DNA of 38,266 nucleotides, from positions 1-38,266 of IMG/VR virus record IMGVR_UViG_3300029265_000706. One strand, 5' to 3'. A program made the position numbers and the translations under genes. Shown here piece after piece: positions 13,413 through 33,548 of the stretch. Under the pieces are notes generated by a model. That model was given only the letters and a program-made list of their open reading frames with translations. It made no database searches and was not told the origin of the DNA. Within the stretch, counting starts at the first letter, position 1. Every line of letters starts with the position of its first letter. The stretch comes from a virus.

Positions 13413-13436
13413 AATTTTTTTATTTTACTTATTCCG

Positions 13437-13468: not shown

Positions 13469-13485
13469 TTAGGTTATTTTTTCCA

Positions 13486-15038: not shown

Positions 15039-15039
15039 C

Positions 15040-16194
15040 TTACCAACCTTTTTTAATACAATCTACAATGTATTCTCTTTGTTCAGGAGTAACCCACCAA
15101 CCAACAGGAATTGAAACTATTTTATCTATAGTTTTATCTAAAGTAGGTAAAGGTGCTCTAAATTCTCTTACGGTTGAATGTTTATCATTTCTTTCATGTA
15201 CTTGAGAAACTACAATATTACACTTTTCCATATGTTTATAAAAACCATCTCTATCATCTACTAACATAGAATAAATCCAAAATGATGAATCAAATCCCTT
15301 TTCACGTTTTAATAATGTTATTCCGGTGGTGTTTTGGAGATGTTTATCATAGTAAGCTGCATTTTCTTTATGTTTAGATATTAACCTTTCAGCGTGTTTT
15401 AAATTTTCAATTCCTACAGTTGCACTTACATCATTCATGTGGAATTTGTAACCCCATTCTGAAATGTCAGCTTCACATCTAAAATCTTTCTTATTTCCAT
15501 CTCTATCAATCCCATACCATCTTGCTAATTTACCTCTTCTATATAATTCTTGATGTGGGGCAATTAATAAACCTCCATCAATAGCTGTAATATGCTTAAT
15601 TGCTTGGAATGAATACATAGTTAAATTACCATGATTCCCAATTTTTTTACCTTTATATTCAGAACCAAAAGAATGAGCTCCATCTTCAATAACTGCAGGT
15701 TTAAAACCATAAAGTTCTTCTGCTTGTTTTTGGATATCTTTGATTTTATCTAAATCATTTGGATAACCCCCCCAATGGACTAACATAATTGCTTTTGTTT
15801 TTGGAGTTATTTTACGAGCTAAATCATCTAAATCCATGTTTAGAGTTTCTGGGTCGATATCCACCCATTTAATTTTTAAACCATTAGCTAGAATAGGCCA
15901 ATTTGAGGCTGTGCAAGTCATAGCTGTAGCTAATACTTCATCACCATCTTCAATTCCAGGCCAATTATTGTGTGGTCTTTTTAATAAATGAAGGGCTAAA
16001 TGTAAAGATGAAGTTCCAGCATTAGTGGTAAAAGCATAATCATGATTAAAATACTTTTTAATGTTATTTTCAAATTCTTCTACTTTAGGGCCTTGTCCTA
16101 TATAACCACTATTAAGAACATTTGAAACTTCATTAGCGGCTGTATCAGCCATAAAAACTTTGAATAGTTGAATCTTTTCCATATTTATTTCCAT
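15040..16194 (-). CDS. DegT/DnrJ/EryC1/StrS sugar aminotransferase
   Basis: 384 residues, full length for this PLP-dependent family. NAGTSSLHLAL (58-68) binds the phosphate of PLP, IEDGAHSFGS holds the ring Asp171, and MYSFQAIKHITAIDGG places the Schiff-base Lys200. It converts a keto nucleotide sugar to an amino sugar using glutamate. The acetyltransferase follows at once, and an SDR epimerase lies in the same module. The first ATG (16194) overlaps the upstream stop by 10 bp. A second ATG at 16182 gives MEKIQLFKVF and is also plausible. Confidence 0.85.
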   Translation of the reverse strand: MEINMEKIQLFKVFMADTAANEVSNVLNSGYIGQGPKVEEFENNIKKYFNHDYAFTTNAGTSSLHLALHLLKRPHNNWPGIEDGDEVLATAMTCTASNWPILANGLKIKWVDIDPETLNMDLDDLARKITPKTKAIMLVHWGGYPNDLDKIKDIQKQAEELYGFKPAVIEDGAHSFGSEYKGKKIGNHGNLTMYSFQAIKHITAIDGGLLIAPHQELYRRGKLARWYGIDRDGNKKDFRCEADISEWGYKFHMNDVSATVGIENLKHAERLISKHKENAAYYDKHLQNTTGITLLKREKGFDSSFWIYSMLVDDRDGFYKHMEKCNIVVSQVHERNDKHSTVREFRAPLPTLDKTIDKIVSIPVGWWVTPEQREYIVDCIKKGW

Positions 16195-18807: not shown

Positions 18808-20427
18808 TTAATACATTGGATCTGATGGTGAAGTTTCTGATTTTGGATAATCAACTACAACACATTCCGTAAGTAAAATTGTTCCTGCTACTGAAGCTGC
18901 ATTTTCTAATGCTGTTTTTGTTACTTTAGTTGGATCTAAAATACCTGCTTTTTTCATATTAACAACTTTTTCGGTTTTTAGATTATAACCAGCCCAAACA
19001 CCTTCATCATTACCTAACAATTGATACTTACCAATCATTTGTGCATCTGTAGATGTATAACCAGCGTTTGTTAGAATTTGTTCAAATGGTTTACCACAAG
19101 CTTCATATACAATTTGAGAACCTATACTAGCCTTAGTAATAGCTTCACGTGCATATAATAATGCAGCACCTCCACCAGGAACAATACCACCTTCTAATGC
19201 AGCTTTAGTAGCATGTAAAGCATCATCAACTCTATCTTTCTTCTCACCCATTTCTACTTCAGTGTGACCACCTACATGGATAATAGAAACACCACCTACC
19301 ATTTTAGCTAAACGATTTTGCAGTTGTTCTGTAATGAATGGAGTTTCGGATTGGTTTAATTGAGTTTGTAATTCACTAACTCTTTGGTTAATAGCTACTT
19401 CATCACCTTTCCCATCAACAATAGTTGTTTCTTCTTTAGAAATCGTAACTGTTCTAGCTTCTCCAAACCAATCATAAGAGAATTTATCAAGCTTCATTCC
19501 TTTATCTTTATCAAATACAGTTCCACCTGTTAAAGTTGCAATGTCTTCAAGAATTAATTTTCTTCTATCTCCAAAATCTGGTGCTTTAACTGCTGCTACC
19601 TTTAGAATACCTCTTGCTTTATTAACAATTAAAGTTGCAAGTGCTTCACTATCAATATCTTCAGCAATAATTAGTAAAGATTTATTCTTATTAGAAACAT
19701 TTTCTAAAATTGGGAGTAATTCTTTAACAGTTGTAAATTTATGATCTGCTATTAAAATGTATGGATCTTCCAAAGTACAAGTCATACTATTATTATCAGT
19801 TACAAAAAAGTGGGATTTATAACCTCTACCAAATTGCATACCTTCTACAGTTTCAAGATAAGTTTCACCTGATTTACTTTCTTCAATGTGTACTACACCA
19901 TCACGTCCTACTTTTTCAATTGCTGTTGAAATCAATTTACCTACCTCAACATCATTGTTAGCTGAGATTGTGGCAATTTGTTCTAATTGGTCTTCATTAG
20001 AAATTTCCTGTGAAATGTTTTCTCTAAGGAAAGTTATTACTTCATTTACAGCTAAATCAATATCACGTTTAATTTCTACAGCATTTTCACCATTATTGAG
20101 GTGTTTTAAACCAGCTTTAACTAATTCTCGAGCTAATAGAGTGGAAGTAGTTGTTCCATCACCAGCCTTTTCAGCTGTCTGTAATGCTGCTTCTTTCACC
20201 ATTTGAACCCCTAAATTTTGAGTTAAATCTTCTACCTCAATGTGTTTAGCTACAGTAACACCATCTTTTGTGTGGATAGGTTTACCTGGTCTATCTGTAC
20301 TTGTTGTATCAATTAATACATTTCTACCATTAGGTCCTAAGGTACATACAACGGCATCTGCTAACACATTGATACCCTCCATTAACTCTGCACGGGATTG
20401 AGTCCCAAATCTTACTTGTTTTTTCAT
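18808..20427 (-). CDS. groL: Chaperonin GroEL (complete)
   Basis: 539 residues, essentially full length for a bacterial GroEL (548 in E. coli). TLGPNGRNVLID and the ATP-site GDGTTTSTLLA (89-99) are intact, as are the catalytic Asp in RVDDALHATKAAL and IVPGGGAALL. The apical and intermediate domains are complete. The C-terminus ends SPSDPMY and lacks the usual Gly-Gly-Met tail that sits in the ring cavity. It is encoded right after groES, so the phage carries a complete pair. It probably folds phage proteins such as the capsid protein late in infection. Confidence 0.95.
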   Translation of the reverse strand: MKKQVRFGTQSRAELMEGINVLADAVVCTLGPNGRNVLIDTTSTDRPGKPIHTKDGVTVAKHIEVEDLTQNLGVQMVKEAALQTAEKAGDGTTTSTLLARELVKAGLKHLNNGENAVEIKRDIDLAVNEVITFLRENISQEISNEDQLEQIATISANNDVEVGKLISTAIEKVGRDGVVHIEESKSGETYLETVEGMQFGRGYKSHFFVTDNNSMTCTLEDPYILIADHKFTTVKELLPILENVSNKNKSLLIIAEDIDSEALATLIVNKARGILKVAAVKAPDFGDRRKLILEDIATLTGGTVFDKDKGMKLDKFSYDWFGEARTVTISKEETTIVDGKGDEVAINQRVSELQTQLNQSETPFITEQLQNRLAKMVGGVSIIHVGGHTEVEMGEKKDRVDDALHATKAALEGGIVPGGGAALLYAREAITKASIGSQIVYEACGKPFEQILTNAGYTSTDAQMIGKYQLLGNDEGVWAGYNLKTEKVVNMKKAGILDPTKVTKTALENAASVAGTILLTECVVVDYPKSETSPSDPMY

Positions 20428-20435
20428 ATTTTTAT

Positions 20436-20735
20436 TTAAATTGTATTAATTTTTGCTAGGATTTGATTTTCTGGACCTACCCAATATTCTTCACTATCAT
20501 ATGGGAGTTTTGTAAATCCTTGAGTAGGTAAAACAACTACATCCCCTACTTTACTTATAGTTTTAATAAAATCACCTGTTATAGTGTGTTGACCAGGACC
20601 TACTGAAATAACTTCTCCTATTTGGTTTTTTTCATTTCCCATATCTGGAACAATAATTGAACCATATTGGGTTTCTTCTGTTTCTACAGATTTTACGATA
20701 ACAGCATTAAATAATGCTTCTAATTCTTTACTCAT
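20436..20735 (-). CDS. groS: Co-chaperonin GroES
   Basis: 99 residues, the normal GroES size. Residues 10-35 match the GroES opening (FNAVIVKSVETEETQYGSI), IVPDMGNEKNQIGEVISVG covers the mobile loop with its hydrophobic IVP-type edge, and the GDVVVLP strand follows. It would form the heptameric lid on the phage or host GroEL. It lies 8 bp upstream of groEL. T4 uses gp31 instead, so this is a bacterial-type GroES rather than a gp31 relative. Confidence 0.9.
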   Translation of the reverse strand: MSKELEALFNAVIVKSVETEETQYGSIIVPDMGNEKNQIGEVISVGPGQHTITGDFIKTISKVGDVVVLPTQGFTKLPYDSEEYWVGPENQILAKINTI

Positions 20736-20763
20736 AATTGGTTTTTGTTTTTGATGTTAATTT

Positions 20764-21084
20764 TTATAATCCTTCCGGATATTTTTGTAATTTTTGTAAT
20801 TCTGCTAATAATATCTTCCATTCATCAACATATTCTCTAATACTAGAATAATTTCTACCTTTAAAATTTAATTTTAACTTAGCGATACATTGTAAAGCTG
20901 CTCCAAAAGATTGGTAATGTCCTTGAGGTTTTTCATAAACTACCCCTTTTGTCCCTTTTTTGAGAACATCTCCTGCTCTTGTTTTTTTAGGAGCAACTGA
21001 CTCATATACTGTGTAACAATATGCGTCTTTACCTACATAGTAGGGTTCTAAAAGAGGATCTCTAATTGTGCTGTTGTTTGACAT
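20764..21084 (-). CDS. Hypothetical 106-aa protein
   Basis: 106 residues, basic, with a C-terminal helical part (YVDEWKILLAELQKLQKYPE) and several strands before it. It lies between hsp20 and groES with a weak promoter upstream (21109-21140). No motif is recognised. Position alone suggests co-expression with the chaperones. Confidence 0.6.
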   Translation of the reverse strand: MSNNSTIRDPLLEPYYVGKDAYCYTVYESVAPKKTRAGDVLKKGTKGVVYEKPQGHYQSFGAALQCIAKLKLNFKGRNYSSIREYVDEWKILLAELQKLQKYPEGL

Positions 21085-21108
21085 ATAACTTTATTTATTT
21101 ATTTGACG

Positions 21109-21140
21109 TGAATGTACGAAAAATATTGCGTTAGGACACG
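21109..21140 (-). promoter_or_regulatory. Promoter-like site with atypical -33
   Basis: TTCGTACATTCA gives the spacer end and -7 box (21120-21109), while the -33 position reads CGTGT inside the inverted repeat 21131-21142. It could drive the 106-aa gene and the groES-groEL operon. The site at 2552 shows the same CGTG/TACATT combination. Confidence 0.4.
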
Positions 21141-21142
21141 CT
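21131..21142. repeat. Inverted repeat, left copy, flanking hsp20
   Basis: TTAGGACACGCT on the plus strand. It is the exact reverse complement of 21628-21639 on the other side of hsp20 and overlaps the -33 region of the next promoter-like site. It could be an operator shared by both chaperone transcripts. Confidence 0.6.
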
Positions 21143-21157
21143 ATTTTAATGAAACCT

Positions 21158-21577
21158 TTATTTTATTTTAATTGATTTTGGTTTTTTAGATTCCGCAATT
21201 GGAATAAATAAATGAAGTAAACCATCCTTCATTTCTGCTTCTAATTGTTCAAGTTCGAACTTAGCTGCTACTTTATAACCTAAGTTAAAAGATCTTTTAG
21301 CTAATCCTTTATAGATATAGTTACTGTAATCTTCTATTTCTTCGGTTGATTTATCATAGATAATTTTTAAAAGATCACCATCAATTTCTAATTTGATGTC
21401 CTTTTTAGTTAACCCAGTACAAGCTATGTCAAAGTGAAGCCCGTCTTTGTCGTAATAAATGTCTAGTGGGTGGGGTTGTTTGTTTTCAAACGTGGTTGGT
21501 TGAAAAGCTCCGTCTGCCTTGAATAGGTTACGGAATAAAATGTCGAATTTCGACTGTTCATTAATTAATGTACTCAT
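21158..21577 (-). CDS. Small heat-shock protein, Hsp20/alpha-crystallin
   Basis: 139 residues, the usual size for bacterial Hsp20. The alpha-crystallin domain spans about residues 30-125, with LDIYYDKDGLHFDIACTGL at its start, DLLKIIYDKS, and the closing AEMKDGLLHLFIPI, which replaces the usual A-x-x-x-n-G-v-L. A short C-terminal IPI-type tail follows. It holds unfolded proteins for refolding and lies next to groES-groEL. Hsp20 genes are known in marine T4-like phages. The leader carries a small hairpin and one copy of a 12-bp inverted repeat. Confidence 0.85.
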   Translation of the reverse strand: MSTLINEQSKFDILFRNLFKADGAFQPTTFENKQPHPLDIYYDKDGLHFDIACTGLTKKDIKLEIDGDLLKIIYDKSTEEIEDYSNYIYKGLAKRSFNLGYKVAAKFELEQLEAEMKDGLLHLFIPIAESKKPKSIKIK

Positions 21578-22482: not shown

Positions 22483-23418
22483 TTAATCTAAATTAAAGAA
22501 CATATCTTTGTAAGGGTTGAGGGATAATGACCAATCCAGATCAGAGTAAAAACCCTCTAATTTATTTAATAAGATAGATTCAAATATTTTCTTTCTATCA
22601 GCATATTGCTCTATAAACTTTTCTATCTTAGGAGGAAAATCAAAATCAAGAAAAGCAATCGCATCTATTTGGTAGGGGTTTGATTTTAAATAAATCCATT
22701 TTACTTTATCACCTTGTGTAATTGCATTATGATCCTTACTTAACCCCCAAAATTTAAGTAAATCATTATATCTAATAACTGCTCTAACTGCTGCTGGCGC
22801 ACCTTTTGCTACTATGGTAAACATCTCTCCAGCTCTAGCTTTACGTTCAGTATACTTATTAAGAGTTTTCACTGAAGTTGGATTACCTAATTGAGTTAAT
22901 GGGATACTACCATCTAATATTTGAATTTTAAATTCTTTAACACGAGCATCAATGTTTGATTGTTTTTCTCCTTTTAACACATCAACTAGTACTTTATGAA
23001 AAAATTTACCTAGTACAGGTGGAAAATTTGCTTTCTTAAACTCAAGTCCCTTTACATCAAGTGTCTCTTTTTTAATACCTTCTTGCTTAGTAATCCACTG
23101 AGCATATCTTCTAGTAGCTCTAAAATAAGCAGCACGGATAACTGCTTCAGTCTTCATTTCTAACCTATGTGCACCTTTTGCATTAAAGCAATTTGTAGCT
23201 AAATCACTATAAGAATCAGTAATAATATCTTGATATTTTAAAGCGATATCTTCTAACTTATCATCTTTTTCTTCACTAGGCATTTCCTCAAAATTAGGAT
23301 ATAAATGTCTTAATAGTGGTTCTGCGTGTACATAGATGGAATCTGTGTCTGAATATGCTACATAATTTATGTCGGTTGCATCGCATATCCACCATGGTAC
23401 ATCTTGTAAATGTTTCAT
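22483..23418 (-). CDS. 43B: DNA polymerase, C-terminal part (gp43B-like)
   Basis: 311 residues carrying polymerase motif C, YSDTDSIYV (22-30), with the two catalytic aspartates, followed by the palm end and the thumb (KGLEFKKANFPPVLGKF, then KTLNKYTERKARAGEMF). The C-terminus ends KDMFFNLD, which resembles the clamp-binding tail of T4 gp43. It lacks the exonuclease and motifs A and B, which are on the gene just upstream. The two products must associate to make an active enzyme. A real split gene is more likely than an error because 43 bp with an A/T-rich leader separate the two. Confidence 0.85.
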   Translation of the reverse strand: MKHLQDVPWWICDATDINYVAYSDTDSIYVHAEPLLRHLYPNFEEMPSEEKDDKLEDIALKYQDIITDSYSDLATNCFNAKGAHRLEMKTEAVIRAAYFRATRRYAQWITKQEGIKKETLDVKGLEFKKANFPPVLGKFFHKVLVDVLKGEKQSNIDARVKEFKIQILDGSIPLTQLGNPTSVKTLNKYTERKARAGEMFTIVAKGAPAAVRAVIRYNDLLKFWGLSKDHNAITQGDKVKWIYLKSNPYQIDAIAFLDFDFPPKIEKFIEQYADRKKIFESILLNKLEGFYSDLDWSLSLNPYKDMFFNLD

Positions 23419-23461
23419 AATTCTATATTTTCTTTATTTATTTTACCCAGTCCTGTTTATA

Positions 23462-25150
23462 CTATAGTTCATCTTCACCTCTAAAAACCTTATTTAAATG
23501 GCGATTAGTAGTTAAAGCACTCTCTTGAATAATTCTTTGTCCACTAAGCGTTGTAGCTTCACTTAGAATTACAGAACCATACCTAAAGCTTGGTAAAGCT
23601 GTTGCGCCATAGAGTGAATTTAATAGAATCTTCATTGTGTATTGTTTCATATGAAATGCATCTCCCGATTCTTTGTCTCCAGATTTATATGCTGTTTTCA
23701 TTTTATTTTTATACATTACACGCTCATCAAACCATTTTTTTAGTATGGTAGATAATACTGATTCTCTATTAGTATCAAACATAACCCCATTTGCTGATAT
23801 GGACATTTTCATATCTTGGATTAAATTAATTAATTCTCCAATTTTAATTTTAGTACGTTTTCGTTTTACATTCTCAATGATGAGTTCTTCTTCAGGATCC
23901 TTACGTTTTAAATCATTTAACCCTAAACGATTATTCCTATCATCAGCATCTATAATCCTACCAATCATAGTTTCTTTACCAATATTAATAGTCATAATAA
24001 TTGATGGGTATAGAGAAGTTAAATCTTCATCAAATACATAATTATAAATACCTGCTTTTGGGCAAAATAAATAACCACCAGCATAATTCTCTTTAGTGAA
24101 AGGGTTACGTTCCTTAGCAGGTGGTACAATACCTTTACTTAATAGATAAGCTGAAATTGCTCCATCTTGGGTTTTAGTATTAGCATATACTTCACTATAG
24201 TTATGTTTTCCTTTATGGGCTAGATTTTTAACAAGTGCTAAATAATCTAACTTTTCATCTAGTTTTTTTAAGATTTCTACATCTACAAAGTTATATTGGA
24301 TAAATTTGTGAATATCATCTTCAAATAATTTATCAAGACTACCTTCATACTCAATTTTATTCATCCCTACATACTTTTCCCCAATTGCATCTAATTTAAA
24401 TGATGGTTCATCAGCCCAACTAAACTTTTTATGTAAACGCATATAATCTAAAGACTCAACCCCTGCTATTTGGATAAATTGATCTTTATACCAAGGGGTT
24501 TCACGAACATAACCTATAGGGGATAAATAACGAGCTACATCTTCACCTAAAACATTACACATTCTATAGTAAAGATAAGGAATATCAAAATAATCACTAT
24601 TCCACCCTACTATAATATCAGGATCAATTTCTCTAAACTTTTCAATAAATTTAAGTAATAATTCATCTTCAGTTTTACAAGGAATAATTTCTTTATTTCT
24701 TGCTTTAGTATGTTTTAATTGACCTTTAGGATCTAAAATAACAATACCCCATAAATCAACTTGTTTATCATACCAAGCTATTGATGTAACTTTTTTAGGA
24801 GCTGATTTGATATATTCTTCGGTAAGGGCTTCACCCATTTCAATCTCAATATCAAAAAATACTTCTCTGTGTGTTTTAGAGGGTTCATCATTGATTCCAT
24901 ACTTATCCACTAAGAACTTTTGGTGGATTGGCATATCATGAAAATGGACTTTATTGTTATCTGGAGTCCAGTTTGGGGTTTTATATAATGATTCACCATT
25001 TAATCCTTTGTGGGTGGATTTAGAATCATCACACTCTATGTAGGCTTGATTTGTCCATTCAATTTTTTCATAACCTTCATCTGACCAAAGGTGGATTAAA
25101 TGATTGTTTCCTCTTAACCTTCTTGAAAATACTTTTTTATACATTTGCAA
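23462..25150 (-). CDS. 43A: DNA polymerase, N-terminal part (gp43A-like)
   Basis: 562 residues of a family-B polymerase. The 3'-5' exonuclease has Exo I FFDIEIE (98-104), Exo II VGWNSDYFDIP (181-191) and Exo III YNFVDVEIL (286-294). Motif A is DLTSLYPSII (376-385) and motif B KILLNSLYGA (507-516). The frame ends after LNKVFRGEDEL, where T4 gp43 would run into motif C. Motif C begins the next ORF. This half alone should keep proofreading but not polymerise. The start at 25150 follows an intergenic stem-loop. Confidence 0.9.
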   Translation of the reverse strand: MQMYKKVFSRRLRGNNHLIHLWSDEGYEKIEWTNQAYIECDDSKSTHKGLNGESLYKTPNWTPDNNKVHFHDMPIHQKFLVDKYGINDEPSKTHREVFFDIEIEMGEALTEEYIKSAPKKVTSIAWYDKQVDLWGIVILDPKGQLKHTKARNKEIIPCKTEDELLLKFIEKFREIDPDIIVGWNSDYFDIPYLYYRMCNVLGEDVARYLSPIGYVRETPWYKDQFIQIAGVESLDYMRLHKKFSWADEPSFKLDAIGEKYVGMNKIEYEGSLDKLFEDDIHKFIQYNFVDVEILKKLDEKLDYLALVKNLAHKGKHNYSEVYANTKTQDGAISAYLLSKGIVPPAKERNPFTKENYAGGYLFCPKAGIYNYVFDEDLTSLYPSIIMTINIGKETMIGRIIDADDRNNRLGLNDLKRKDPEEELIIENVKRKRTKIKIGELINLIQDMKMSISANGVMFDTNRESVLSTILKKWFDERVMYKNKMKTAYKSGDKESGDAFHMKQYTMKILLNSLYGATALPSFRYGSVILSEATTLSGQRIIQESALTTNRHLNKVFRGEDEL

Positions 25151-25226: not shown

Positions 25227-25793
25227 TTATTGTATAATAGCGAACTTTGCTACTAATACACAATCAACACTTGATACTAAATCATTCACGGTGATGTTAG
25301 GTTCAACAAAAACATTAGTTTCCGTTGGATAGAAATATTCCTGATTAATCCGTTGACTAACTGCAAATTCAAAAGCTGCTCCACCGGATACACTAGGGAT
25401 ACTATAGAAACCTTGAACTGCTCCTGCAAGTACAGTACCACCATCATCTGCTACACTCCGAGGGTTACATATATAAGACCTAAAATTCTCATTTTTAATT
25501 CCTATTGACATACGACCTCCTACACCTAAATCTACTTCTTCTTTAAATACTATATATAACTCTTGGATTAATGAATTTGCAGGTATTGCCCTTGGAAGTT
25601 CAAGTTCATACCTTCCCGTGGGTGTAGGAATTGTAAATGGTGATGTAGTTGTAACGCTATTGAACTCACTGGTTAGAGTTGTTAAATAATTACTAGTAGC
25701 ATTACTTCTTGTAGTAATATCCCTATTTGTATTGTCACCATTGTTAAACCCAAATTTGGCTGTTGCATCCGTTAGATTGAATGTTGCTCGCAT
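25227..25793 (-). CDS. Tandem paralog D, probable beta-rich virion protein
   Basis: 188 residues and the most diverged of four adjacent paralogs. It starts MRATFNLTDATAKFGFNNGD, with the shared F(N/S)L-DATA-FGFN-GDN-NRDI block over residues 4-27. The rest is predicted beta-sandwich with alternating Thr/Ser/Val strands. There is no signal peptide, membrane segment or catalytic motif. By composition and tandem duplication it is likely a virion surface or fibre-associated protein, but this is an inference. Ala/Gly-rich paralogs B and C resemble each other more than this one. Confidence 0.6.
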   Translation of the reverse strand: MRATFNLTDATAKFGFNNGDNTNRDITTRSNATSNYLTTLTSEFNSVTTTSPFTIPTPTGRYELELPRAIPANSLIQELYIVFKEEVDLGVGGRMSIGIKNENFRSYICNPRSVADDGGTVLAGAVQGFYSIPSVSGGAAFEFAVSQRINQEYFYPTETNVFVEPNITVNDLVSSVDCVLVAKFAIIQ

Positions 25794-25820
25794 AGTTTTG
25801 TTTTTTTAATTAAGAGATTT

Positions 25821-26366
25821 TTATATTGTGGAGTAATTTACTACGAATATAGCATCAACACTTGCTGCTAATGCATTCACCCCAACTATGGTTTGTATGA
25901 AAAGTGTTTGATCAGCTGTGAAGTATCTAACTCCACCAGGAGTAAATGTAAATGCTGCTCCATTTTGACTAGGAGCTTGGTTGATACCTTGGACGGATCC
26001 TTCATCTACTCCACCACCTGCATTATCTACTAGTGCTAATGGACATATTTCAGCTCCACCACTAGTTGAACCAACAGTTAATGATAAAGTACCTCCTGCT
26101 CCTAAATCTATGTCTTCTTTGAATAGTACTGATATATTAGTTATTACTCCATTTGCAGGTGAAGCTGCTGGAAATGTAAAATTTGTTGTAGCTACTCCTA
26201 CAGGAATCGTAAATGCTGTTGATGTTACCTTTGAAGCAGCAGAATTTAGAGTTGCTAAATAAGCTGCAGTAGCATCTGCTCTTGTAATAATATCCCTATT
26301 TGGATTGTCACCACTGTTAAACCCAAATGAGGCTGTTGCATTTGTTAGATTGAATGTTTGTTGCAT
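25821..26366 (-). CDS. Tandem paralog C, probable beta-rich virion protein
   Basis: 181 residues. It begins MQQTFNLTNATASFGFNSGD and keeps the block GDNPNRDIITR. It continues with FTIPVGVATTNFTF, SVLFKEDIDLGAGGTLSLTV and a C-terminal ADQTLFIQTIVGVNALAASV strand pair shared with paralog B. Thr/Ala/Gly-rich beta composition is typical of virion decoration or fibre proteins. It follows a terminator at 26396-26434, so it may have its own promoter close to 26390, but no TTTGG/TATATTTA box is visible there. Confidence 0.6.
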   Translation of the reverse strand: MQQTFNLTNATASFGFNSGDNPNRDIITRADATAAYLATLNSAASKVTSTAFTIPVGVATTNFTFPAASPANGVITNISVLFKEDIDLGAGGTLSLTVGSTSGGAEICPLALVDNAGGGVDEGSVQGINQAPSQNGAAFTFTPGGVRYFTADQTLFIQTIVGVNALAASVDAIFVVNYSTI

Positions 26367-26395
26367 GTTTTTGTTTATTGTTGTTTAATGATTAA

Positions 26396-26434
26396 TTATA
26401 AAAAGGGGTAAATCAGTATATCCAACTTACCCCT
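26396..26434 (-). terminator. Rho-independent terminator
   Basis: The stem AGGGGTAA/TTACCCCT (26434-26427 and 26411-26404) with a 15-nt loop is followed on the minus strand by TTTTTAT. It lies after the stop of paralog B (26458). Confidence 0.75.
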
Positions 26435-26457
26435 CTTTGTAGTTCTATTAATGTGTT

Positions 26458-26991
26458 TTATAAAGTAGTGTAACTTACTACTAAAGAACAAGTTGCTGCT
26501 CCAGCCATTGCATTTACTCCTACTACTGATCTTATAAATAGAGAAGTCCCATTAACGAAATAAACTGGTGTTCCTGTTTCAAATACAAATACTGCTCCAC
26601 CTGTTGCGGCTATTGAAGAAATACCTGTAGCTGCTCCTGTAGATATTGAACCTCCTGCTGCTCCTGTTAAAACTGATGCACAAAGTTCTGCACCACCTGA
26701 AGCTGTACCAACTGCAAGATTTAAAGTACCTCCGGCACCAAAATCGACTGCTGATCTAAATATTACTTTAAGATCGGTTACTACTGAATTTGCAGGAACT
26801 ATATTTAAAAATTGAGTATCTACTGTTGCAACTCCTGCAGGGATTGTAAATGCTATTTTTGATGCTTTTGCTGTTTGTCCTAAAAAGGTTGCTGTAGCAT
26901 CTTGTCTTGTAATGATATCCCTATTTGGGTTATCACCGCTGTTAAACCCAAAGGAGGCTGTTGCGTTTGTTAAATTGAATGATGGTTGCAT
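26458..26991 (-). CDS. Tandem paralog B, probable beta-rich virion protein
   Basis: 177 residues. It starts MQPSFNLTNATASFGFNSGD and is nearly identical to paralog C over the first 30 residues, then diverges: FTIPAGVATVDTQF, a GAGGTLNLAVGTASGGAELC segment and a C-terminal GTSLFIRSVVGVNAMAG. The GC-rich Ala/Gly codons (mostly GCT and GGT) differ from the AT-rich neighbours and suit high expression. It is followed by a clear terminator. A virion role is inferred, not shown. Confidence 0.6.
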   Translation of the reverse strand: MQPSFNLTNATASFGFNSGDNPNRDIITRQDATATFLGQTAKASKIAFTIPAGVATVDTQFLNIVPANSVVTDLKVIFRSAVDFGAGGTLNLAVGTASGGAELCASVLTGAAGGSISTGAATGISSIAATGGAVFVFETGTPVYFVNGTSLFIRSVVGVNAMAGAATCSLVVSYTTL

Positions 26992-27028
26992 AATTTTGTT
27001 TTTAATTAATTAAATTATTTATTTGTGT

Positions 27029-27068
27029 ACATTGATACATATTATAAAAGGGTTAAAATTATATATTA
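27029..27068. repeat. Duplicated intergenic segment, copy 1
   Basis: About 40 bp around ATTATAAAAGGGTTAAAATT upstream of paralog B, overlapping the stop of paralog A. It matches 27704-27742 with a few substitutions and contains an ACCCTTTTATAATATG core on the minus strand. It was probably copied with the gene and may hold the late-type promoter. Confidence 0.6.
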
Positions 27069-27665
27069 TATAGTAATGTAATCTACTATAAATGTAACAT
27101 TTACGGGATCTTTTAGGGTTTGGTTATCAAATACTGTTCTTGCAAATAATAATTGATCTGTTTCAAAATATCTAACTGCACCATTTACAAATGTAAAAGA
27201 TTCTGCAGGGTACAAACTACCCTCAAAAGGAAAAGGTGTAACAGCAATACTATCCAAGGATTGCACTGCTCCTGCTACAATATCCCGACCTGCAACGTTG
27301 GATTTTGCGGGTGCACAAATTTCTGCTCCACCTGTAGTTGTACCAATTGAAAAGTTTATATTAGAAGTTATATCAAAACGATTAGGTGGGACTGGGAAGT
27401 TGATTTGTGTTACTTCAGTCCACACTAACGACACACCAGTTATTAATGAACCTGCAGGTATTGGGGTTGACATTGGTGTATCTATGGTTGATTCATCAAA
27501 TGATGGTATGGAGATGACAGTTATTATGGAAGATGGTACGATAGAGTCAAGTGTTGTTACATACTCTGCAGTAGCATTTTTTCTTATAATAATATCCCTA
27601 TTTGGGTTATCACCCCTATTAAAACCAAATGTAGCCGTTGCATCCTCCAAACTAAATCTCCCCAT
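27066..27665 (-). CDS. Tandem paralog A, probable beta-rich virion protein
   Basis: 199 residues, the longest paralog. It starts MGRFSLEDATATFGFNRGD and keeps GDNPNRDIIIRKNATAEY. The body has extra insertions (IPSFDESTIDTPMSTPIP and NRFDITSNINF) before TGGAEICAP and the C-terminal ETDQLLFARTVFDNQ. It is the first of the four in transcription order, and the 27704-27742 repeat lies just upstream. Likely virion-associated by analogy with the other three. No known family was recognised. Confidence 0.6.
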   Translation of the reverse strand: MGRFSLEDATATFGFNRGDNPNRDIIIRKNATAEYVTTLDSIVPSSIITVISIPSFDESTIDTPMSTPIPAGSLITGVSLVWTEVTQINFPVPPNRFDITSNINFSIGTTTGGAEICAPAKSNVAGRDIVAGAVQSLDSIAVTPFPFEGSLYPAESFTFVNGAVRYFETDQLLFARTVFDNQTLKDPVNVTFIVDYITI

Positions 27666-27703: not shown

Positions 27704-27742
27704 ACGTTAATACATACTATAAAAGGGTTGAAATTATATATT
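27704..27742. repeat. Duplicated intergenic segment, copy 2
   Basis: ACTATAAAAGGGTTGAAATT and flanks, upstream of paralog A and overlapping the 3' end of the MazG-like gene. It is the partner of 27029-27068. The shared minus-strand core TTTTATA(A/G)TATGTAT has some likeness to T4-type late promoters (TATAAATA), which is speculative. Confidence 0.6.
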
Positions 27743-28372
27743 TTTTAATTCTTCTTCTCTAAAGAATTTGGTTAAATCAGGGCGGAAGTAATTAATATTT
27801 TTCATAACCTTCATATCACGCGTTCTATAGACAATATAATATCCCCCAACCTTCGAATAGTGACATGGTTCCTTTTGCTCTGCAGAGCGCCTCTCAACGG
27901 TTTTTTGTGCTTCTTCTTCGTTAACACAAGCCTTAGACATATTTGACGCTTGTACTTCTTGATATGCGGGCCATACTTTTTCTTTAAGACCATGTAACAT
28001 AGCTCCGTTACCAAGTGAAACGTAGGTAATGTCACATAGAGCATCAAGAACTTCAATAATGTCTCCGGCTTCACATGCAGCCTTATATTCTTCAAGTTCT
28101 TCAAGGATGAAATTATAAACAAACATCCATTCTTTTTTTTCTGGAATCGTAGATTCATAGTTATTTGGTTTACCCATAGTAGAATTAAATTCCTCTACTT
28201 CACTTACAAAAGGAACATATTTGCTTAAAATCATACTCTCAATACGATTAGATATAACATCTGCCCATTCCATTTGGGGAATTATATTTTCTCTATCTCT
28301 ATATTGTACCTCATTTAACAATTCAATACTATTTATCAATTCCTGTTGAATTAACTCTTTTACTTTCTTCAT
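27734..28372 (-). CDS. MazG-like nucleotide pyrophosphatase
   Basis: 212 residues. The helical core has EELEEYKAA (91-99) and IIEVLDALCDITYV (105-118), the EExxE...ExxD metal-binding pattern of the MazG/PRA-PH fold, which hydrolyses NTPs or related nucleotides to monophosphates. Extra N-terminal helices and a C-terminal part (YYIVYRTRDMKV) surround it. It lies 13 bp downstream of folE. It may shape the nucleotide pool or alter host ppGpp signalling, as proposed for phage MazG. Confidence 0.75.
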   Translation of the reverse strand: MKKVKELIQQELINSIELLNEVQYRDRENIIPQMEWADVISNRIESMILSKYVPFVSEVEEFNSTMGKPNNYESTIPEKKEWMFVYNFILEELEEYKAACEAGDIIEVLDALCDITYVSLGNGAMLHGLKEKVWPAYQEVQASNMSKACVNEEEAQKTVERRSAEQKEPCHYSKVGGYYIVYRTRDMKVMKNINYFRPDLTKFFREEELKNI

Positions 28373-28385: not shown

Positions 28386-29081
28386 TTATATTTGGTGTCC
28401 CCCATTATTGATTTTTATGCTATCAAAGAATTCTTTTCTTGATTGATTTGTATTATCTCTAAATGCTTTACATGCTTTAGTAGTAACCATGGAAGCACCA
28501 TGATGTTTAACACCTCTACAACTTACACATGAATGTGTTGCAACTATTGTAACAATTACACCTAAATTACCTTCAGTGATTTTATCTACTGCATTGTGGA
28601 TAGCTGATGTTAGTTGTTCTTGAATAGCACCTCTACGACCAAATAATTCTACGATTCTATTAAGTTTAGATAACCCAATTACTTGACCTGATTCTCCTGC
28701 AATATAACCAATATGAACTACACCCATAATAGTTTGGTGATGGTGTGAACACATAGATGTAAGTGGGATATTTCTTTCAATTACGATTCCATCATAACCA
28801 TCACTTGGGAATGAAGTAATAGGAGACATTGCTGTATAACGTCCTGCCCATAAATCATTTACATAAGCTTTAGCTACACGTCTTGGTGTCTCCATAGAAT
28901 TTGGATCATTTCTCCAATCACATTTTAAAGCATCTAAAAAATCACCATATGCTTTTTCAGCATCGTTAATCATTTTATCTTTATTAGATTGTTCTAATGG
29001 GAAGCCTTCAGCAACTCCATTCGCAAAACCTGTCTGTACCACTTCTAATTCTTCGTGGATTTTTCTACGTTTATTTTCCAT
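28386..29081 (-). CDS. folE: GTP cyclohydrolase I (FolE)
   Basis: 231 residues, full length. The core shows NIPLTSMCSHHHQTIMG with zinc ligands Cys111 and His114, VIGLSKLNRIVELFGRR (134-150), QEQLT, and THSCVSCRGV with His183 and the third zinc ligand Cys185. It converts GTP to 7,8-dihydroneopterin triphosphate, the first step to preQ0. QueD, QueE and QueC genes lie upstream on the same strand, so deazaguanine synthesis rather than folate is the likely purpose. It has its own promoter at 29101-29132. Confidence 0.92.
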   Translation of the reverse strand: MENKRRKIHEELEVVQTGFANGVAEGFPLEQSNKDKMINDAEKAYGDFLDALKCDWRNDPNSMETPRRVAKAYVNDLWAGRYTAMSPITSFPSDGYDGIVIERNIPLTSMCSHHHQTIMGVVHIGYIAGESGQVIGLSKLNRIVELFGRRGAIQEQLTSAIHNAVDKITEGNLGVIVTIVATHSCVSCRGVKHHGASMVTTKACKAFRDNTNQSRKEFFDSIKINNGGHQI

Positions 29082-29100
29082 TTATAACTTTTTATATAAT

Positions 29101-29132
29101 ATAATATACGAACTCTATTTATAGAGCCCAAA
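29101..29132 (-). promoter_or_regulatory. Bacteroidetes-type promoter
   Basis: Read leftward: TTTGG (29132-29128), a 19-bp spacer ending TTCG, TATATTAT (29108-29101). Its -33 side overlaps the last codons of hpt. It drives folE. Confidence 0.75.
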
Positions 29133-29622
29133 TTGAAGGTAAATTTCTATTATGTCCATTTTCATCATCCATTCCAGCTCCGATCACCCACTCATCTTTA
29201 ATAGTAAAAGCATGATATGATTGTTGTTTTGGTGTTGGGGAGGTAGATCTTGTAATTAAAGATGCTATTGAAATCGAAGCTGGGTGTTTTACTTCTAAAT
29301 ATTCTATAACAGCAGAAATCGTATTTCCAGTATCGTAAATATCATCTACAATGTAAACATGCTTACCCTTTATGGGTGTTTCCAAATCCTTAGTGATTTG
29401 TATATCGCCTTGTTTGCGCTTTGTATACGATTTAACGCGCATAAAATCACACTCCACCACAATCGGCATAGCACGAACTAAATCGCTGTAAAACGCAAAG
29501 CAACCGTTAAGTAAACCAACCATTATTACAGGTGTTTTATCACCTCTATGAGCATCTGCTATTTGTTTACCAATTATTTTAGTTTGGAAATTAATAGCCT
29601 TAGCCGAAATTAATTCTCTCAT
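29119..29622 (-). CDS. hpt: Hypoxanthine-guanine phosphoribosyltransferase
   Basis: 167 residues, typical for bacterial Hpt. The PRPP-binding motif is VYIVDDIYDTGNT (89-101), and the N-terminal GLLNGCFAFYSDLVRAM and the flexible-loop segment MRVKSYTKRKQGD are in place. WVIGAGMDDE near the end matches the purine-binding loop. It salvages guanine or hypoxanthine to GMP or IMP with PRPP. DpdA-type exchange releases free guanine, so recycling it to GMP would fit this cluster. Confidence 0.88.
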   Translation of the reverse strand: MRELISAKAINFQTKIIGKQIADAHRGDKTPVIMVGLLNGCFAFYSDLVRAMPIVVECDFMRVKSYTKRKQGDIQITKDLETPIKGKHVYIVDDIYDTGNTISAVIEYLEVKHPASISIASLITRSTSPTPKQQSYHAFTIKDEWVIGAGMDDENGHNRNLPSIWAL

Positions 29623-29762
29623 TTTTCCTCTTTAATTAAATATTTATCTAGGACTTCAATTACTTGTTCCATAGCATCATAGTCGTTGGTTGTATCATTG
29701 ACAACTTTAACTATTTGCTCTGATATTTCCTCTAATATGCCAAAATTTTCTATCTTATCCAC
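29619..29762 (-). CDS. Small acidic protein with GTG start
   Basis: 47 residues if started at the GTG at 29762 (VDKIENFGILEEISEQIVK). The helical, acidic sequence ends in a TGA that overlaps the hpt start (ATGA), so translation is probably coupled. There is no nearby ATG, which makes a non-ATG start necessary. The function is unknown, and it could be a chance open frame. Confidence 0.45.
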   Translation of the reverse strand: MDKIENFGILEEISEQIVKVVNDTTNDYDAMEQVIEVLDKYLIKEEK

Positions 29763-29792
29763 TATACTTATTTTATTTTTTACTATTATTTC

Positions 29793-30569
29793 TTACACAA
29801 ATCTCTTTTTATCATAAGCAATGATGTGATCTCGCCCTGTCATACAATAACCCCTCTCAGCACACATTTCAAATACAAGGGGGTACATTTTGATTAATTC
29901 ATCTCTAGAATCCCCACCAGGCATTATAAATGTTTTATCTTTAGGAATATCCATTTTAACTCTAAATTCTTCAATTTCAGCTAAACCACTTTCAGTTCCA
30001 TCCCATACTGGTTTGTAATGATAATCAGAATGGTAATCTAATGTTTGACGGATAGCCTGAAAATTAAGTCTAAGTTTATTATGTTGTTTAATAATCTTCT
30101 CATCTGTAATCTTACCTCCAGGAGTTGGTACACCTAATACTGGAACTGAATTGCTAAATTTAGGGCTAAGTGAGATAAGACCTATTGGAAAATCAGTTTC
30201 AATGAAATGAGATCCTTCAGTTTCAATTGTAATTAATATACCTCTCTCATTTGCAAAGTTGGTTAATTCATTTACAACTGTAGGGTGGAGTGTAGGACTT
30301 CCTCCAGTTAACATCATCTCTTTAATATGAGGGTTTTCATCATACATTTTAATAATATCGTTAAATGTAAAACCCCCTCTTTCGGGATGTATTGATGTTT
30401 GCCAAGAATCACACCATCCACCTTCACCGAAATAACATCTATGGGTACACCCTGTAGTTCTTACTGCTATAGTTGGACGTCCAAAACGGCTACCCTCTGA
30501 TTGTACACACCTGTATAATTCAAGTATGGGGAGTACCTTGTTGTAATCTTCTATTCTTTTTATTGCCAT
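29793..30569 (-). CDS. queE: QueE-like 7-carboxy-7-deazaguanine synthase (radical SAM)
   Basis: 258 residues. LYRCVQSEGSRFGRPTIAVR matches the QueE N-terminus (SxQGEG-type, then GxPxxFVR). The cluster site is CTHRCYFGEGGWCDS with Cys41, Cys45 and Cys53 (C-x3-C-x7-C), wider than the usual CX3CX2C but with the conserved Asp after the last Cys. MLTGGSPTLHP is the GGEP-like SAM motif. It rearranges CPH4 to CDG, the third preQ0 step. The queD gene lies 13 bp upstream. Confidence 0.85.
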   Translation of the reverse strand: MAIKRIEDYNKVLPILELYRCVQSEGSRFGRPTIAVRTTGCTHRCYFGEGGWCDSWQTSIHPERGGFTFNDIIKMYDENPHIKEMMLTGGSPTLHPTVVNELTNFANERGILITIETEGSHFIETDFPIGLISLSPKFSNSVPVLGVPTPGGKITDEKIIKQHNKLRLNFQAIRQTLDYHSDYHYKPVWDGTESGLAEIEEFRVKMDIPKDKTFIMPGGDSRDELIKMYPLVFEMCAERGYCMTGRDHIIAYDKKRFV

Positions 30570-30582
30570 AACTATTTTTTAT

Positions 30583-31050
30583 TTAATCTTCTACATAATA
30601 TGCAGCATTTTTACCATGTTCCATAAACTTTACCTTAGTAACCCTAACCCTACCACCAGTCTCTTCTAATACGAATGGGTTAAGCTTATTAAAAATGAAT
30701 TCTGAGAATTTTTCGGCACCTGTAGCTTCAATAACTCTTAACTGGATTACACCTAAATCATTCATTGTTTTCCAACCTCCCATTCCAGGATCATCTTCAG
30801 CAACAATAACTGTGTGGTCAAACATATAGTCCATCCATTCTTTAGGTGATTTACCATCGATTAAAGTTTTAGCACGTTTCATACCTCCAAAATCCCAAAC
30901 CCAATTTCGATCATCTAATTCACCTTCAAAATATACCTTAAATGAAATACCATAACCATGTAGAAATCTACAGTGTGTATCTTCTGCTTTCCATTGACGA
31001 AACACTGTACTAAACCCGTCAAATATTTTACTTGATTGAAATTTACCCAT
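30583..31050 (-). CDS. queD: QueD-like 6-carboxytetrahydropterin synthase
   Basis: 155 residues. The segment FRQWKAEDTHCRFLHGYGIS contains the catalytic-type Cys and the HG(Y/H) motif, and WVWDFGGMKRAK and DHTVIVAEDDPG complete the family layout. Compared with E. coli QueD the first zinc histidine and the second His of HGH are not in the usual places. An FRQWRA/SHCxFLHGY form of the family exists, so it is likely active. It makes CPH4 from dihydroneopterin triphosphate. It overlaps the thioredoxin gene by 8 bp. Confidence 0.82.
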   Translation of the reverse strand: MGKFQSSKIFDGFSTVFRQWKAEDTHCRFLHGYGISFKVYFEGELDDRNWVWDFGGMKRAKTLIDGKSPKEWMDYMFDHTVIVAEDDPGMGGWKTMNDLGVIQLRVIEATGAEKFSEFIFNKLNPFVLEETGGRVRVTKVKFMEHGKNAAYYVED

Positions 31051-31300
31051 TATACCAGTCTAAAATTTGTTGTTGTGATTGAACTCCAATTTTACGGCTA
31101 AGTTCTTTTCCATCTAAATCAGTTAAAATTAAAGTTGGGATGCTTTTAATATCATATTGTTGGGTTATTGATGCATCATAGTCACAATTAACCTTTTTAA
31201 CTTTTACCCCATATTTTTCTAACCCATCCATAATAGGTCCTAATTGTTTACAAGGTCCACACCACGGTGCGGAGAAGTAGATAATTCCTTTCTTATTCAT
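31043..31300 (-). CDS. Thioredoxin-like protein
   Basis: 85 residues, about the size of T4 thioredoxin NrdC (87 aa). WCGPCK at 13-18 is the classical thioredoxin active site and differs from the CVYC of T4. The cis-proline segment SIPTLIL (53-59) is present. It could reduce ribonucleotide reductase or, given its place between queC and queD, keep the deazaguanine enzymes reduced. Cytoplasmic, no signal peptide. Confidence 0.88.
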   Translation of the reverse strand: MNKKGIIYFSAPWCGPCKQLGPIMDGLEKYGVKVKKVNCDYDASITQQYDIKSIPTLILTDLDGKELSRKIGVQSQQQILDWYNG

Positions 31301-31319
31301 AATTTATTTATTTTATTGT

Positions 31320-31481
31320 TTATACTAATTCTTCTATTATTCCTACAATTTCACTCAATATAAGAATAGTTATTGCCAACTCCAAATTAAAGAGAATGTA
31401 ACAATAACCTAATGCTCTAACTGATGATTTTATAAATGAGATTTTTTTATTCCATTTTTGGTTATTTCCTTTACGTTTCAT
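31320..31481 (-). CDS. Small single-TM protein
   Basis: 53 residues beginning MKRKGNNQKWNKKISFIKSS, a basic N-terminus followed by a hydrophobic helix (about 27-45: YILFNLELAITILILSEIV) and a short acidic tail. It would be an inner-membrane protein with the N-terminus inside. It lies 1 bp downstream of the queC stop. The function is unknown. Confidence 0.5.
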   Translation of the reverse strand: MKRKGNNQKWNKKISFIKSSVRALGYCYILFNLELAITILILSEIVGIIEELV

Positions 31482-31482
31482 A

Positions 31483-32328
31483 TTATTTTACATTTAATAG
31501 TTCTTTTTCGTATTCCGATAGTAATTGTTCAACATAAACTTTTGCTACGTCATAACATACAACACCTGATTCATCATAATATTGTACTGGATCTAGACGA
31601 CCTAATGCTATAAATGCTTCAATACGTTCTACAGAAGATGCTGATTTATAATCACTAAACCCTTCAGGTGATGGTTTATATGATGTGAGTGTTCTAGCAT
31701 ACACTTCATCAAAATCAATATCTAATTTATCACATAAAATTTCACCATCTTGTAGTATCGTAAACTTATTACCTTCTAAATATGGTGTAAAATAACTTAC
31801 CCTCTCAGCATCCCAATTGCCTTCTCTAAATGCTTTATCATCTGCATCTCTAAATTCTTGTCTACAATCAGGATAAATACTATGATCACCGCTATGAATT
31901 CCAAGAGCAATTACTGTATTATCTCCTGTGCGATTAGCAACTGATAATGCTACGGCTTGCGATATAGAAGCAAATATTTTATTACGATTAGGAACTACTG
32001 TTGCTTTCATATTATCTTCAGCATAGTGTCCTTCAGGCACTTCATCTCCCCCTTCTACAAGAGCAGAATCAAGTAAATTTACTAAACCATCTAATTTAAT
32101 AACTTGGTAATTGATATTATATTTATGTCTTTTTAGATAGTCTACTAAAGCTTTTGCTCTTCTTAATTCAACTTTATGCTTTTGACCATAGTCAAATGAT
32201 AAAGCTGTTACTGTTTCAAATTTTTCAAGACATTTAAGTAATAACGTTGAGCTATCTAGTCCTCCTGAAAGTGAAACTACTGCGTGTTTAGGACTTTTAA
32301 AGTCCTGCTGATTAAATTCTAGTTGCAT
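31483..32328 (-). CDS. queC: QueC-like 7-cyano-7-deazaguanine synthase without zinc cysteines
   Basis: 281 residues. The PP-loop VSLSGGLDSST (18-28), FDYGQKH (45-51), VPNRN (112-116) and GIHSGDHSIYPDCRQEF (143-159) are all QueC signatures. In place of the four zinc cysteines seen in known QueC proteins it has Ser216 (LTSYK) and Asp226, Ser229 and Ser232 just before VERIEAF. The fold must be stabilised another way, or activity is altered. It should convert CDG plus ammonia and ATP to preQ0, the last step before DNA insertion. Confidence 0.85.
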   Translation of the reverse strand: MQLEFNQQDFKSPKHAVVSLSGGLDSSTLLLKCLEKFETVTALSFDYGQKHKVELRRAKALVDYLKRHKYNINYQVIKLDGLVNLLDSALVEGGDEVPEGHYAEDNMKATVVPNRNKIFASISQAVALSVANRTGDNTVIALGIHSGDHSIYPDCRQEFRDADDKAFREGNWDAERVSYFTPYLEGNKFTILQDGEILCDKLDIDFDEVYARTLTSYKPSPEGFSDYKSASSVERIEAFIALGRLDPVQYYDESGVVCYDVAKVYVEQLLSEYEKELLNVK

Positions 32329-32346
32329 ATTTTTTTATATATTAAA

Positions 32347-32568
32347 TTATCTACGAGCTAAACTATAATCTTCACCTATAGGGCGTATTACAGATATAAT
32401 GTTACCTTGTATCTTACATTTACCACCTTGTTGTAGTATTTTCCTAACAACAATTTCTTCATTTTCACTCCAATCTTCACTTAATGTGATGAGTTCTTCT
32501 TTAGTAGTTGAATCTCCATTTAGTGTTATTTTTTCTAAACCTCTTATGGTTTGTTTTTTTAATGCCAT
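32347..32568 (-). CDS. Hypothetical 73-aa protein
   Basis: 73 residues, soluble and charged, with a central EDWSENEEIVVRKILQQGGK helix and a C-terminal strand pair (KIQGNIISVIRPI). It lies 18 bp upstream of queC and 1 bp downstream of the 63-aa gene, so all are co-transcribed. No motif is recognised. Confidence 0.55.
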   Translation of the reverse strand: MALKKQTIRGLEKITLNGDSTTKEELITLSEDWSENEEIVVRKILQQGGKCKIQGNIISVIRPIGEDYSLARR

Positions 32569-32569
32569 T

Positions 32570-32761
32570 TTAATTATAGTTAAAATATAAATCTAAAAAT
32601 TCTTTAGGATATGTCATTACTTTCCCTTCATACTTAAGATTACTTATATCTCTTGTTGAGGGTTTAATATTCATAGCTTTAGCAGCTGTGAATACATTTT
32701 TTCCTGTTTCTTTACCTGCGGCTTTTCCTAGGTATTCGTATAAACTTTGCTTTACACCCAT
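32570..32761 (-). CDS. Hypothetical 63-aa protein
   Basis: 63 residues beginning MGVKQSLYEYLGKAAGKETG, with one helix followed by a polar stretch (MNIKPSTRDISNL). It ends 1 bp before the next ORF and starts 1 bp after the dpdA stop. No motif is visible. Confidence 0.55.
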   Translation of the reverse strand: MGVKQSLYEYLGKAAGKETGKNVFTAAKAMNIKPSTRDISNLKYEGKVMTYPKEFLDLYFNYN

Positions 32762-32762
32762 A

Positions 32763-33548
32763 TTATATATTATTTATTTGTTTAAATTTTGTTAAATTAT
32801 AATCTAATAAATTATAATCAATTTTATTACTTTCCATGTAGAAAAAATCATTCATATTTGCTTTTGGTTTTTGTGTTAAACCCGTATTTGAATAAGTAGT
32901 ATTTTCTAATGTAGCCATTATTGGGTTTGAGGTATCTATTGATTCAATACACTTAATTCCGCGGTACCAACCAAATTCTTGTGGTACTGAACACCCCAAT
33001 AAATGTATTCTGTCATTTTCATTCAATGCTCCTTGATTATATAAAGTAGAAATAACAGATATACGCCCTAACGCTTTACCTAAATCTTTATTAGGGTGAG
33101 GACATATATCATTATAATATGAAGCACCATAAGAATATGCTATTTTATTATAACCTAATCTTTTATAAATTTTAGTACATTCGAAGGCTTCATGGAGAGT
33201 TTTTGCTTGAACTACTGCTACTTTTTCAACTCCTTTAGGAAATTTATAATTAATCCAAATCTCAGCATTACAAACTGATTCTACTAAGTCTTCCCAAACA
33301 TCAGGGACAATAAATTCATTAGGTTTAATTTCTTCTATCCAATGTAATAAGCGTTCATGGTTATAGGCTTCACCCAATTCATGTAAAGAATTATCCATTA
33401 TGATATAACGCCCTTCAGCTTTAGCTTTAAGAAAATAATCTAAATAAGCAGGTTCCTCATCTAATAGGTGAGGAAGGATGAATTCATAATCGTTAAATTT
33501 TCTACTATCTTCTAGTAGGCATAGAGGTACTTCGTGATTTACTTTCAT
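32763..33548 (-). CDS. dpdA: DpdA-like DNA guanine transglycosylase (TGT fold)
   Basis: 261 residues. YIIMDNSLHELGE (48-60) places Asp52 where TGT enzymes carry the general-base Asp, and FIVPDVWED resembles the barrel strand that follows. RIHLLGCSVPQEFGWY (180-195) and CIESIDTSNPI (200-210) match the TGT LGx and nucleophile segments, with Asp205 as the likely nucleophile. It would replace guanine in DNA by preQ0. A tRNA TGT is less likely because it is much shorter (TGT is about 370 aa) and lacks the C-terminal zinc cysteines. It shares its transcript with queC and thyX. Confidence 0.72.
   Translation of the reverse strand: MKVNHEVPLCLLEDSRKFNDYEFILPHLLDEEPAYLDYFLKAKAEGRYIIMDNSLHELGEAYNHERLLHWIEEIKPNEFIVPDVWEDLVESVCNAEIWINYKFPKGVEKVAVVQAKTLHEAFECTKIYKRLGYNKIAYSYGASYYNDICPHPNKDLGKALGRISVISTLYNQGALNENDRIHLLGCSVPQEFGWYRGIKCIESIDTSNPIMATLENTTYSNTGLTQKPKANMNDFFYMESNKIDYNLLDYNLTKFKQINNI

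Follow-up and report, generated by a model that had tools for sequence, protein, structure and literature searches.

The viral DNA studied here, IMG/VR record IMGVR_UViG_3300029265_000706, is a 38-kb fragment of 38,266 bases (the window, beyond which there is no sequence) from an uncultivated marine, probably flavobacterial, phage. Our investigations point with good confidence to a complete and probably post-replicative DNA-modification module on its minus strand, which combines a pathway to 7-cyano-7-deazaguanine (preQ0), guanine exchange by a DpdA-like transglycosylase, guanine recycling by a hypoxanthine-guanine phosphoribosyltransferase (HGPRT) and resistance to restriction. In this module, FolE, QueD, QueE and a QueC without zinc site would convert GTP to preQ0 or to its amide (ADG); the DpdA-like protein, which has the fold of a tRNA-guanine transglycosylase (TGT), would swap guanine in the phage DNA for the 7-deaza base through a covalent intermediate on Asp205, with Asp52 as acid/base; the HGPRT would turn the freed guanine into GMP and return it to the GTP pool; and the phage DNA modified in this way would resist host restriction. 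A preliminary description of this DNA had called the module near-complete. All its open reading frames (ORFs) lie where they had been placed, on a single strand, and the observation holds overall, except that the gene set is in fact complete. All window coordinates given below refer to the minus strand.

The transglycosylase is a protein of 261 amino acids (aa) encoded at 32763-33548. It has no Pfam match above cut-off (DUF6610 appears below threshold only) and none in NCBIfam, a PDB profile search returned chance matches only, and an hhalign comparison with two DpdA1 proteins from phages gave a probability of 8%. We built an AlphaFold2 model from 40 homologues, with a mean predicted local distance difference test score (pLDDT) of 94.8, which Foldseek matched to TGT (E 6e-8) and to DpdA 7ui4 (E 1e-6). 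Using VIA-align, Z scores of 17.4 with the ArcTGT 1iq8, 17.0 with TGT carrying preQ0 (2pwv) and 17.0 with the bacterial DNA preQ0 insertase DpdA (7UI4) were obtained, with about 230 residues aligned at about 3.2 Å. The model forms the (beta/alpha)8 barrel of TGT type expected of a DpdA, and the PDB matches listed for it are all TGT, ArcTGT or DpdA, with no unrelated barrel among them, which bears out the TGT fold previously proposed. The bacterial DpdA, TGT and ArcTGT proteins share this fold but are larger and about 12% identical to the window protein, and only the predicted fold resolves the latter as a TGT/DpdA, which sequence alone does not. Among viral proteins, its structural neighbours include TGT/DpdA proteins of phages, such as a 'queuine tRNA-ribosyltransferase' of Arthrobacter phage Mufasa8 and R9TGF0 of Vibrio phage nt-1, and the viral structure library also returned a protein of Cellulophaga phage phiST that is uncharacterised.

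The two aspartates singled out in the preliminary description were recovered in the expected motifs. Asp52 (codon 33393-33395), the candidate general acid/base, lies in the motif DNSxxEL just past the predicted strand 49-51, and Asp205 (codon 32934-32936), the candidate nucleophile, lies in SxDTxxP inside the predicted strand 201-206; both are invariant across the 40 homologues and are also found in two Bacillus/Weizmannia phage homologues. The segments D52-N-S, P-D83, Q114, HLLG185 and D205-T are invariant in the 40 homologues, and D52, D83, Q114, G185 and D205 each stand at the C-terminal end of a predicted barrel strand, in an order which we take to be that of the TGT motifs D102, D156, Q203, G261 and D280 (Zymomonas TGT numbering). 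The zinc motif of the tRNA enzymes, CxCxxC...H, is absent, and no cysteine follows D205.

The closest annotated relatives of this protein are an enzyme of Flavobacterium phage immuto, annotated as DNA guanine transglycosylase (full-length tblastn, E 7e-49, 37% identity), and a protein annotated as hypothetical in Campylobacter phage CP220 (E 6e-37, 36%). Enzymes like those of CP220 and immuto were reportedly assigned to DpdA3, a type tied to complete replacement, by Cui et al. in 2023; full-length tblastn and the tree both show the homology of the window protein to them, which makes it a candidate DpdA3-type DNA guanine transglycosylase. Remoter homologues in Bacillus phage BSP7 and Weizmannia phage Youna2 are encoded directly behind QueC-QueD-QueE-FolE, and the family is thus found inside preQ0 clusters of unrelated phages (BSP7, Youna2 and immuto). 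With the 261-aa protein as query, we retrieved 180 relatives from IMG/VR. DpdA, QueC, QueD, QueE and FolE are all on one strand in every window-type IMG/VR locus that is long enough to include FolE (41/41), which links the transglycosylase to preQ0 synthesis and argues that the module is not a product of chance. The preQ0 pathway and the DpdA-like protein, both recognised in the preliminary description, are conserved as a unit in a large family of phages. Four module-bearing phage contigs (L177, L180, L182 and L184) were found in metagenome-assembled genomes (MAGs) of Flavobacteriales, Pelagibacter and Woesearchaeota; as these are phage contigs binned into bacterial or archaeal MAGs, their host labels are unreliable.

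In order of transcription, the minus strand of the window carries the DpdA-like gene, two small ORFs (63 and 73 aa), QueC, a thioredoxin-like gene, QueD, QueE, the phosphoribosyltransferase, FolE and a MazG-like gene. The four enzymes of preQ0 synthesis that had been named from the sequence were all recovered by family matches: FolE, a GTP cyclohydrolase I (28386-29081; PF01227, E 3.6e-42) whose metal-site Cys and His are retained in the alignment; a QueE-like radical S-adenosylmethionine 7-carboxy-7-deazaguanine synthase with the motif C-x3-C-x7-C (29793-30569; phrog_2076, E 2.7e-41; TIGR03365 at 50 bits, under its cut-off); a QueD-like 6-carboxytetrahydropterin synthase (30583-31050; phrog_2389, E 8e-39; PF01242 at 50 bits, cut-off 22.4); and QueC, the 7-cyano-7-deazaguanine synthase (31483-32328, 281 aa; PF06508, E 9e-38). 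The product of 29119-29622 most resembles HGPRT (Hpt): its best-scoring PDB relatives are HGPRTs (3acb, E 2e-30), and it scores slightly below the cut-off of TIGR01203 (142.4 bits, cut-off 150). A phosphoribosyltransferase gene, in the window that of HGPRT, stands near FolE in 40/41 window-type loci and in 70/72 loci of a sister clade, an association that fits the recycling of released guanine by Hpt, as the preliminary description had it, and this is the likely role of the enzyme. The gene for a MazG-like nucleotide pyrophosphohydrolase adjoining FolE (27734-28372; PF01503 and phrog_671) accompanies FolE in 34/41 window-type and 70/72 sister-clade loci, and the module can reasonably be taken as far as this gene. 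Overall, the module belongs to a known kind, the phage 7-deazaguanine DNA modification of DpdA3-like type, from which it departs in its zinc-less QueC and in the phosphoribosyltransferase fixed beside FolE.

The window QueC retains SGGLDS, YGQKHKVE, VPNRN and YPDC together with the conserved Lys and a Tyr that corresponds to Y189 of E. coli, in other words the catalytic signature (SGGxDS, YxQxHxxE, VPxRN, YPDC, conserved Lys and Tyr189) that it shares with canonical QueC (PF06508 cluster 1) and whose residues are essential in E. coli QueC (PMC13329287). All of these essential residues are present in the zinc-less QueC, in which the catalytic motifs are invariant. By contrast, the four cysteines of the canonical zinc tetrad, C(x)8CxxCxxC, are all gone: alignments show that this region (31594-31692) reads TLTSYKP...SDYKSASSVERIEAF instead, a motif with Ser and Asp residues (TSYKP...SDYKSASSVER) that immuto shares and that is near-invariant across the 89 full-length relatives from phage contigs. 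Because the zinc motif is absent, we call the protein a zinc-less QueC variant and not a canonical QueC. The cysteines are present in the QueC of other phages (CP220, KurtStettler, nt-1, phiSM and Ares) and in other bacterial QueC. In the tree, the zinc-less proteins form one clade (support 100/100) on a long stem, with two apparently cellular sequences at its base, one from a Facilibium subflavum isolate (L185 3989-4810, on a contig with ordinary chromosomal genes besides QueE and QueD) and one from a Neomarinimicrobiota MAG (L186 3995-4789, in a QueD-QueC operon). Both genomes are drafts in which the zinc-less protein is the sole QueC above the family cut-off and in which QueF and QueA are also present. 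As QueF and QueA have no other QueC beside them in these two genomes, the zinc-less protein should still make preQ0, which is the simplest reading of the sequences. Modelled with AlphaFold, the window QueC has a pLDDT of 94.2, with block means of 95-98 over the altered region, and matches the QueC structures 2pg3 and 3bl5. We rejected the idea that the zinc-less form is a product of decay confined to phages, as it is near-invariant in 89 sequences, has one origin and stands on the two cellular contigs. The text of a QueC family survey of 2026 describes no such variant of canonical QueC. A more tentative and rather doubtful extension is that a zinc-free QueC subfamily, with its near-invariant Ser/Asp/Lys motif in place of the structural zinc site, has genuine preQ0 synthase activity in a widespread lineage of marine phages and in some bacteria, and that, together with a DpdA invisible to the TGT profile, it supports near-complete replacement of guanine by preQ0.

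The QueD-like protein is altered as well, and neither this change nor the one in QueC was part of the preliminary description. The zinc ligands of QueD are His16, His31 and His33 (E. coli numbering); in the alignment, the window protein lacks two of these three histidines, with F at the first position and the middle His kept (HGY). The same combination of F and HGY occurs in immuto, in Cellulophaga phage phiSM and on the Facilibium chromosome (L185 2899-3369). Because the canonical ligands are incomplete, we term the protein QueD-like on the basis of profile and context.

Several points weigh against the module as proposed. Its QueC is without a zinc site and its QueD without two canonical zinc ligands, and should either enzyme fail to work, the phage would have to draw its preQ0 from the host. 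The sequence of the transglycosylase does not significantly resemble TGT or DpdA1 profiles, and for this reason its membership of DpdA rests on predicted fold and context. Moreover, all the window-type relatives found are uncultivated and, the window being a fragment, a further downstream enzyme may lie elsewhere in the genome.

As for the base that this module would insert, we consider dPreQ0 an even bet, dADG possible at somewhat lower probability and any other base improbable, while near-complete replacement of dG is favoured, although modestly. QueC reaches preQ0 via ADG as an intermediate, and the strongest rival to dPreQ0 is that QueC releases this amide, or that DpdA selects it, giving near-complete dADG; we find this conceivable but not the better choice. 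PMC13329287 lists ADG in its abbreviations for QueC. Among characterised relatives, the one closest to the window DpdA is gp56 of CP220/CPt10 (Firehammervirus), homologous over its full length, and CP220 DNA is reported to carry dADG, and not dPreQ0, in place of 100% of its dG (PMC8306585, which cites Crippen 2019). This keeps both complete replacement and dADG in play, and it leaves the earlier wording, in which preQ0 replaced some guanines, unsupported as stated. The genome of CP220 resembles the window in having QueD and QueC, but its 7-deazaguanine genes are scattered where those of the window form one operon, and it has no TGT-like protein detectable with PF01702. The loss of the zinc site in the window QueC also speaks for the amide; however, the QueC of CP220 has its zinc cysteines, so that zinc loss does not track with ADG, and the zinc-less protein is the sole QueC of two bacteria whose QueF and QueA need preQ0. 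On these two grounds, and as far as the report on CP220 goes, we set aside as unsupported the notion that QueC, once its zinc site is lost, goes no further than ADG. Phages with DpdA1 or DpdA2, such as the Escherichia CAjan-like (KurtStettler) and Mycobacterium Rosebush-like (Ares) phages and Vibrio phage nt-1, are like the window in having the minimal preQ0 set and a TGT-type DNA transglycosylase (PMC6884629); they differ in having a QueC with zinc site, and their DpdA1 proteins have no detectable sequence similarity to the window DpdA. The FolE/QueD/QueE/QueC/DpdA set leads to dPreQ0 in Rosebush and CAjan, with about 30% of G replaced, which stands against ADG, and the loss of dpdA in CAjan abolishes both the modification and the resistance to restriction (PMC6884629).

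It could also be possible that the base is decorated further, by an unrecognised enzyme encoded outside the window that modifies preQ0 before or after insertion, and this we judge unlikely. The window has 38 kb where relatives have 158-170 kb, and the sister clade around immuto, which separates from the window type in the tree, places a formyltransferase, a thymidylate-kinase-like protein and QueF after DpdA. QueF is found in 54/54 long sister-clade loci and in 0/26 long window-type loci. The preliminary description had argued for the nitrile form from the lack of QueF or an amidotransferase-type gene in the window. Taken alone, this absence says little, as the window is a 38-kb fragment; the argument gains strength from larger window-type relatives, since QueF, GATase_6, ArcS-type domains and formyltransferase are absent from their records of 158-170 kb and from others of 54-82 kb, and the same searches recover QueF and formyltransferase in immuto. 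Immuto itself (Immutovirus), whose modified base is predicted to derive from preQ1, has a DpdA of the same family, a QueC that is 64% identical with equal zinc loss, and QueD, QueE, phosphoribosyltransferase, FolE and MazG in the neighbourhood as in the window; it differs in the three genes added beside DpdA, in the location of its QueC, which stands apart, and in the DNA polymerase near the cluster (A in immuto, B in the window).

Guanine exchange in DNA has also to be weighed against two rivals that we consider very improbable. In the first, the genes would boost host queuosine, with preQ0 made for host tRNA and the TGT-fold protein acting on tRNA and not on DNA. The fold is indeed common to the tRNA enzymes, and such a role has been proposed where phages carry preQ0 genes without any recognised DpdA (PMC6884629). 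Nevertheless, the 261-aa protein is compact, with neither the CxCxxC zinc motif of tRNA TGT nor an RNA-binding extension, it belongs to the family of the protein of CP220, whose DNA is reportedly fully modified, and the sister clade puts beside DpdA a formyltransferase for which no step in tRNA queuosine synthesis is known. The second, in which the modified base enters at replication as a dNTP handled by HGPRT and the MazG-like protein while the TGT-like protein is accessory, draws on the adjacent HGPRT, MazG-like and DNA polymerase genes and on a nucleotide-level route proposed for Campylobacter phages (PMC6884629), but conservation extends to the residues that base exchange would call for, and since CP220 itself encodes a homologue with the TGT fold, the grounds for that proposal fall away.

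Two small genes accompany the core enzymes. The 85-aa thioredoxin-like protein (31043-31300; PF00085, E 1e-16) is encoded with an 8-base overlap with QueD, and its gene sits between QueC and QueD in 26/26 long relatives. The 73-aa ORF between QueC and DpdA (32347-32568) is matched in 22/26 long relatives and gave no family at E <0.01 in scans of family libraries; a similar sequence also occurs between the halves of the DNA polymerase in some loci (for example at 17593 in locus L037, 38%). A scan of the window with Rfam gave no match, and PADLOC returned only weak QueC and viperin-like matches, as expected from homology.

Outside the module, the window carries other features of note. Four tandem paralogues of 177-199 aa (25227-27665), flanked by the MazG-like gene and the DNA polymerase, share an N-terminal motif like NATAsFGFNxGDNPNRDIITR; one of them was tested against GenBank phages and gave no match, and they are possibly decoration or structural proteins. 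The family B DNA polymerase is encoded in two ORFs (22483-25150), and as the relatives inspected have the same break, in several of them with additional sequence separating the two halves, the division seems natural and not due to a frameshift. A GroEL of 539 aa and an Hsp20-like small heat-shock protein are encoded at 18808-21577. Finally, a sugar gene block with several glycosyltransferases, a nucleotide-sugar epimerase, an aminotransferase and an acyltransferase (5275-16194) could serve to decorate the virion, the host surface or DNA.

In conclusion, the replacement of guanine in DNA by 7-deazaguanines is a known anti-restriction strategy, and our results indicate that a full system of this kind is common among uncultivated marine phages, given the 180 relatives of its DpdA in IMG/VR. 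PF01702, the standard TGT profile, finds nothing at E<=1 in 12 phage records that bear the DpdA-like protein and matches in 14/14 control genomes; phages with this module can therefore carry their key enzyme as 'hypothetical'. The zinc-less QueC forms one clade and yet is the sole QueC of two cellular genomes with QueF and QueA, so that the need of a zinc site for preQ0 synthesis becomes directly testable. The existence of a sister clade with QueF next to a window clade without it predicts two different modified bases in these phages.

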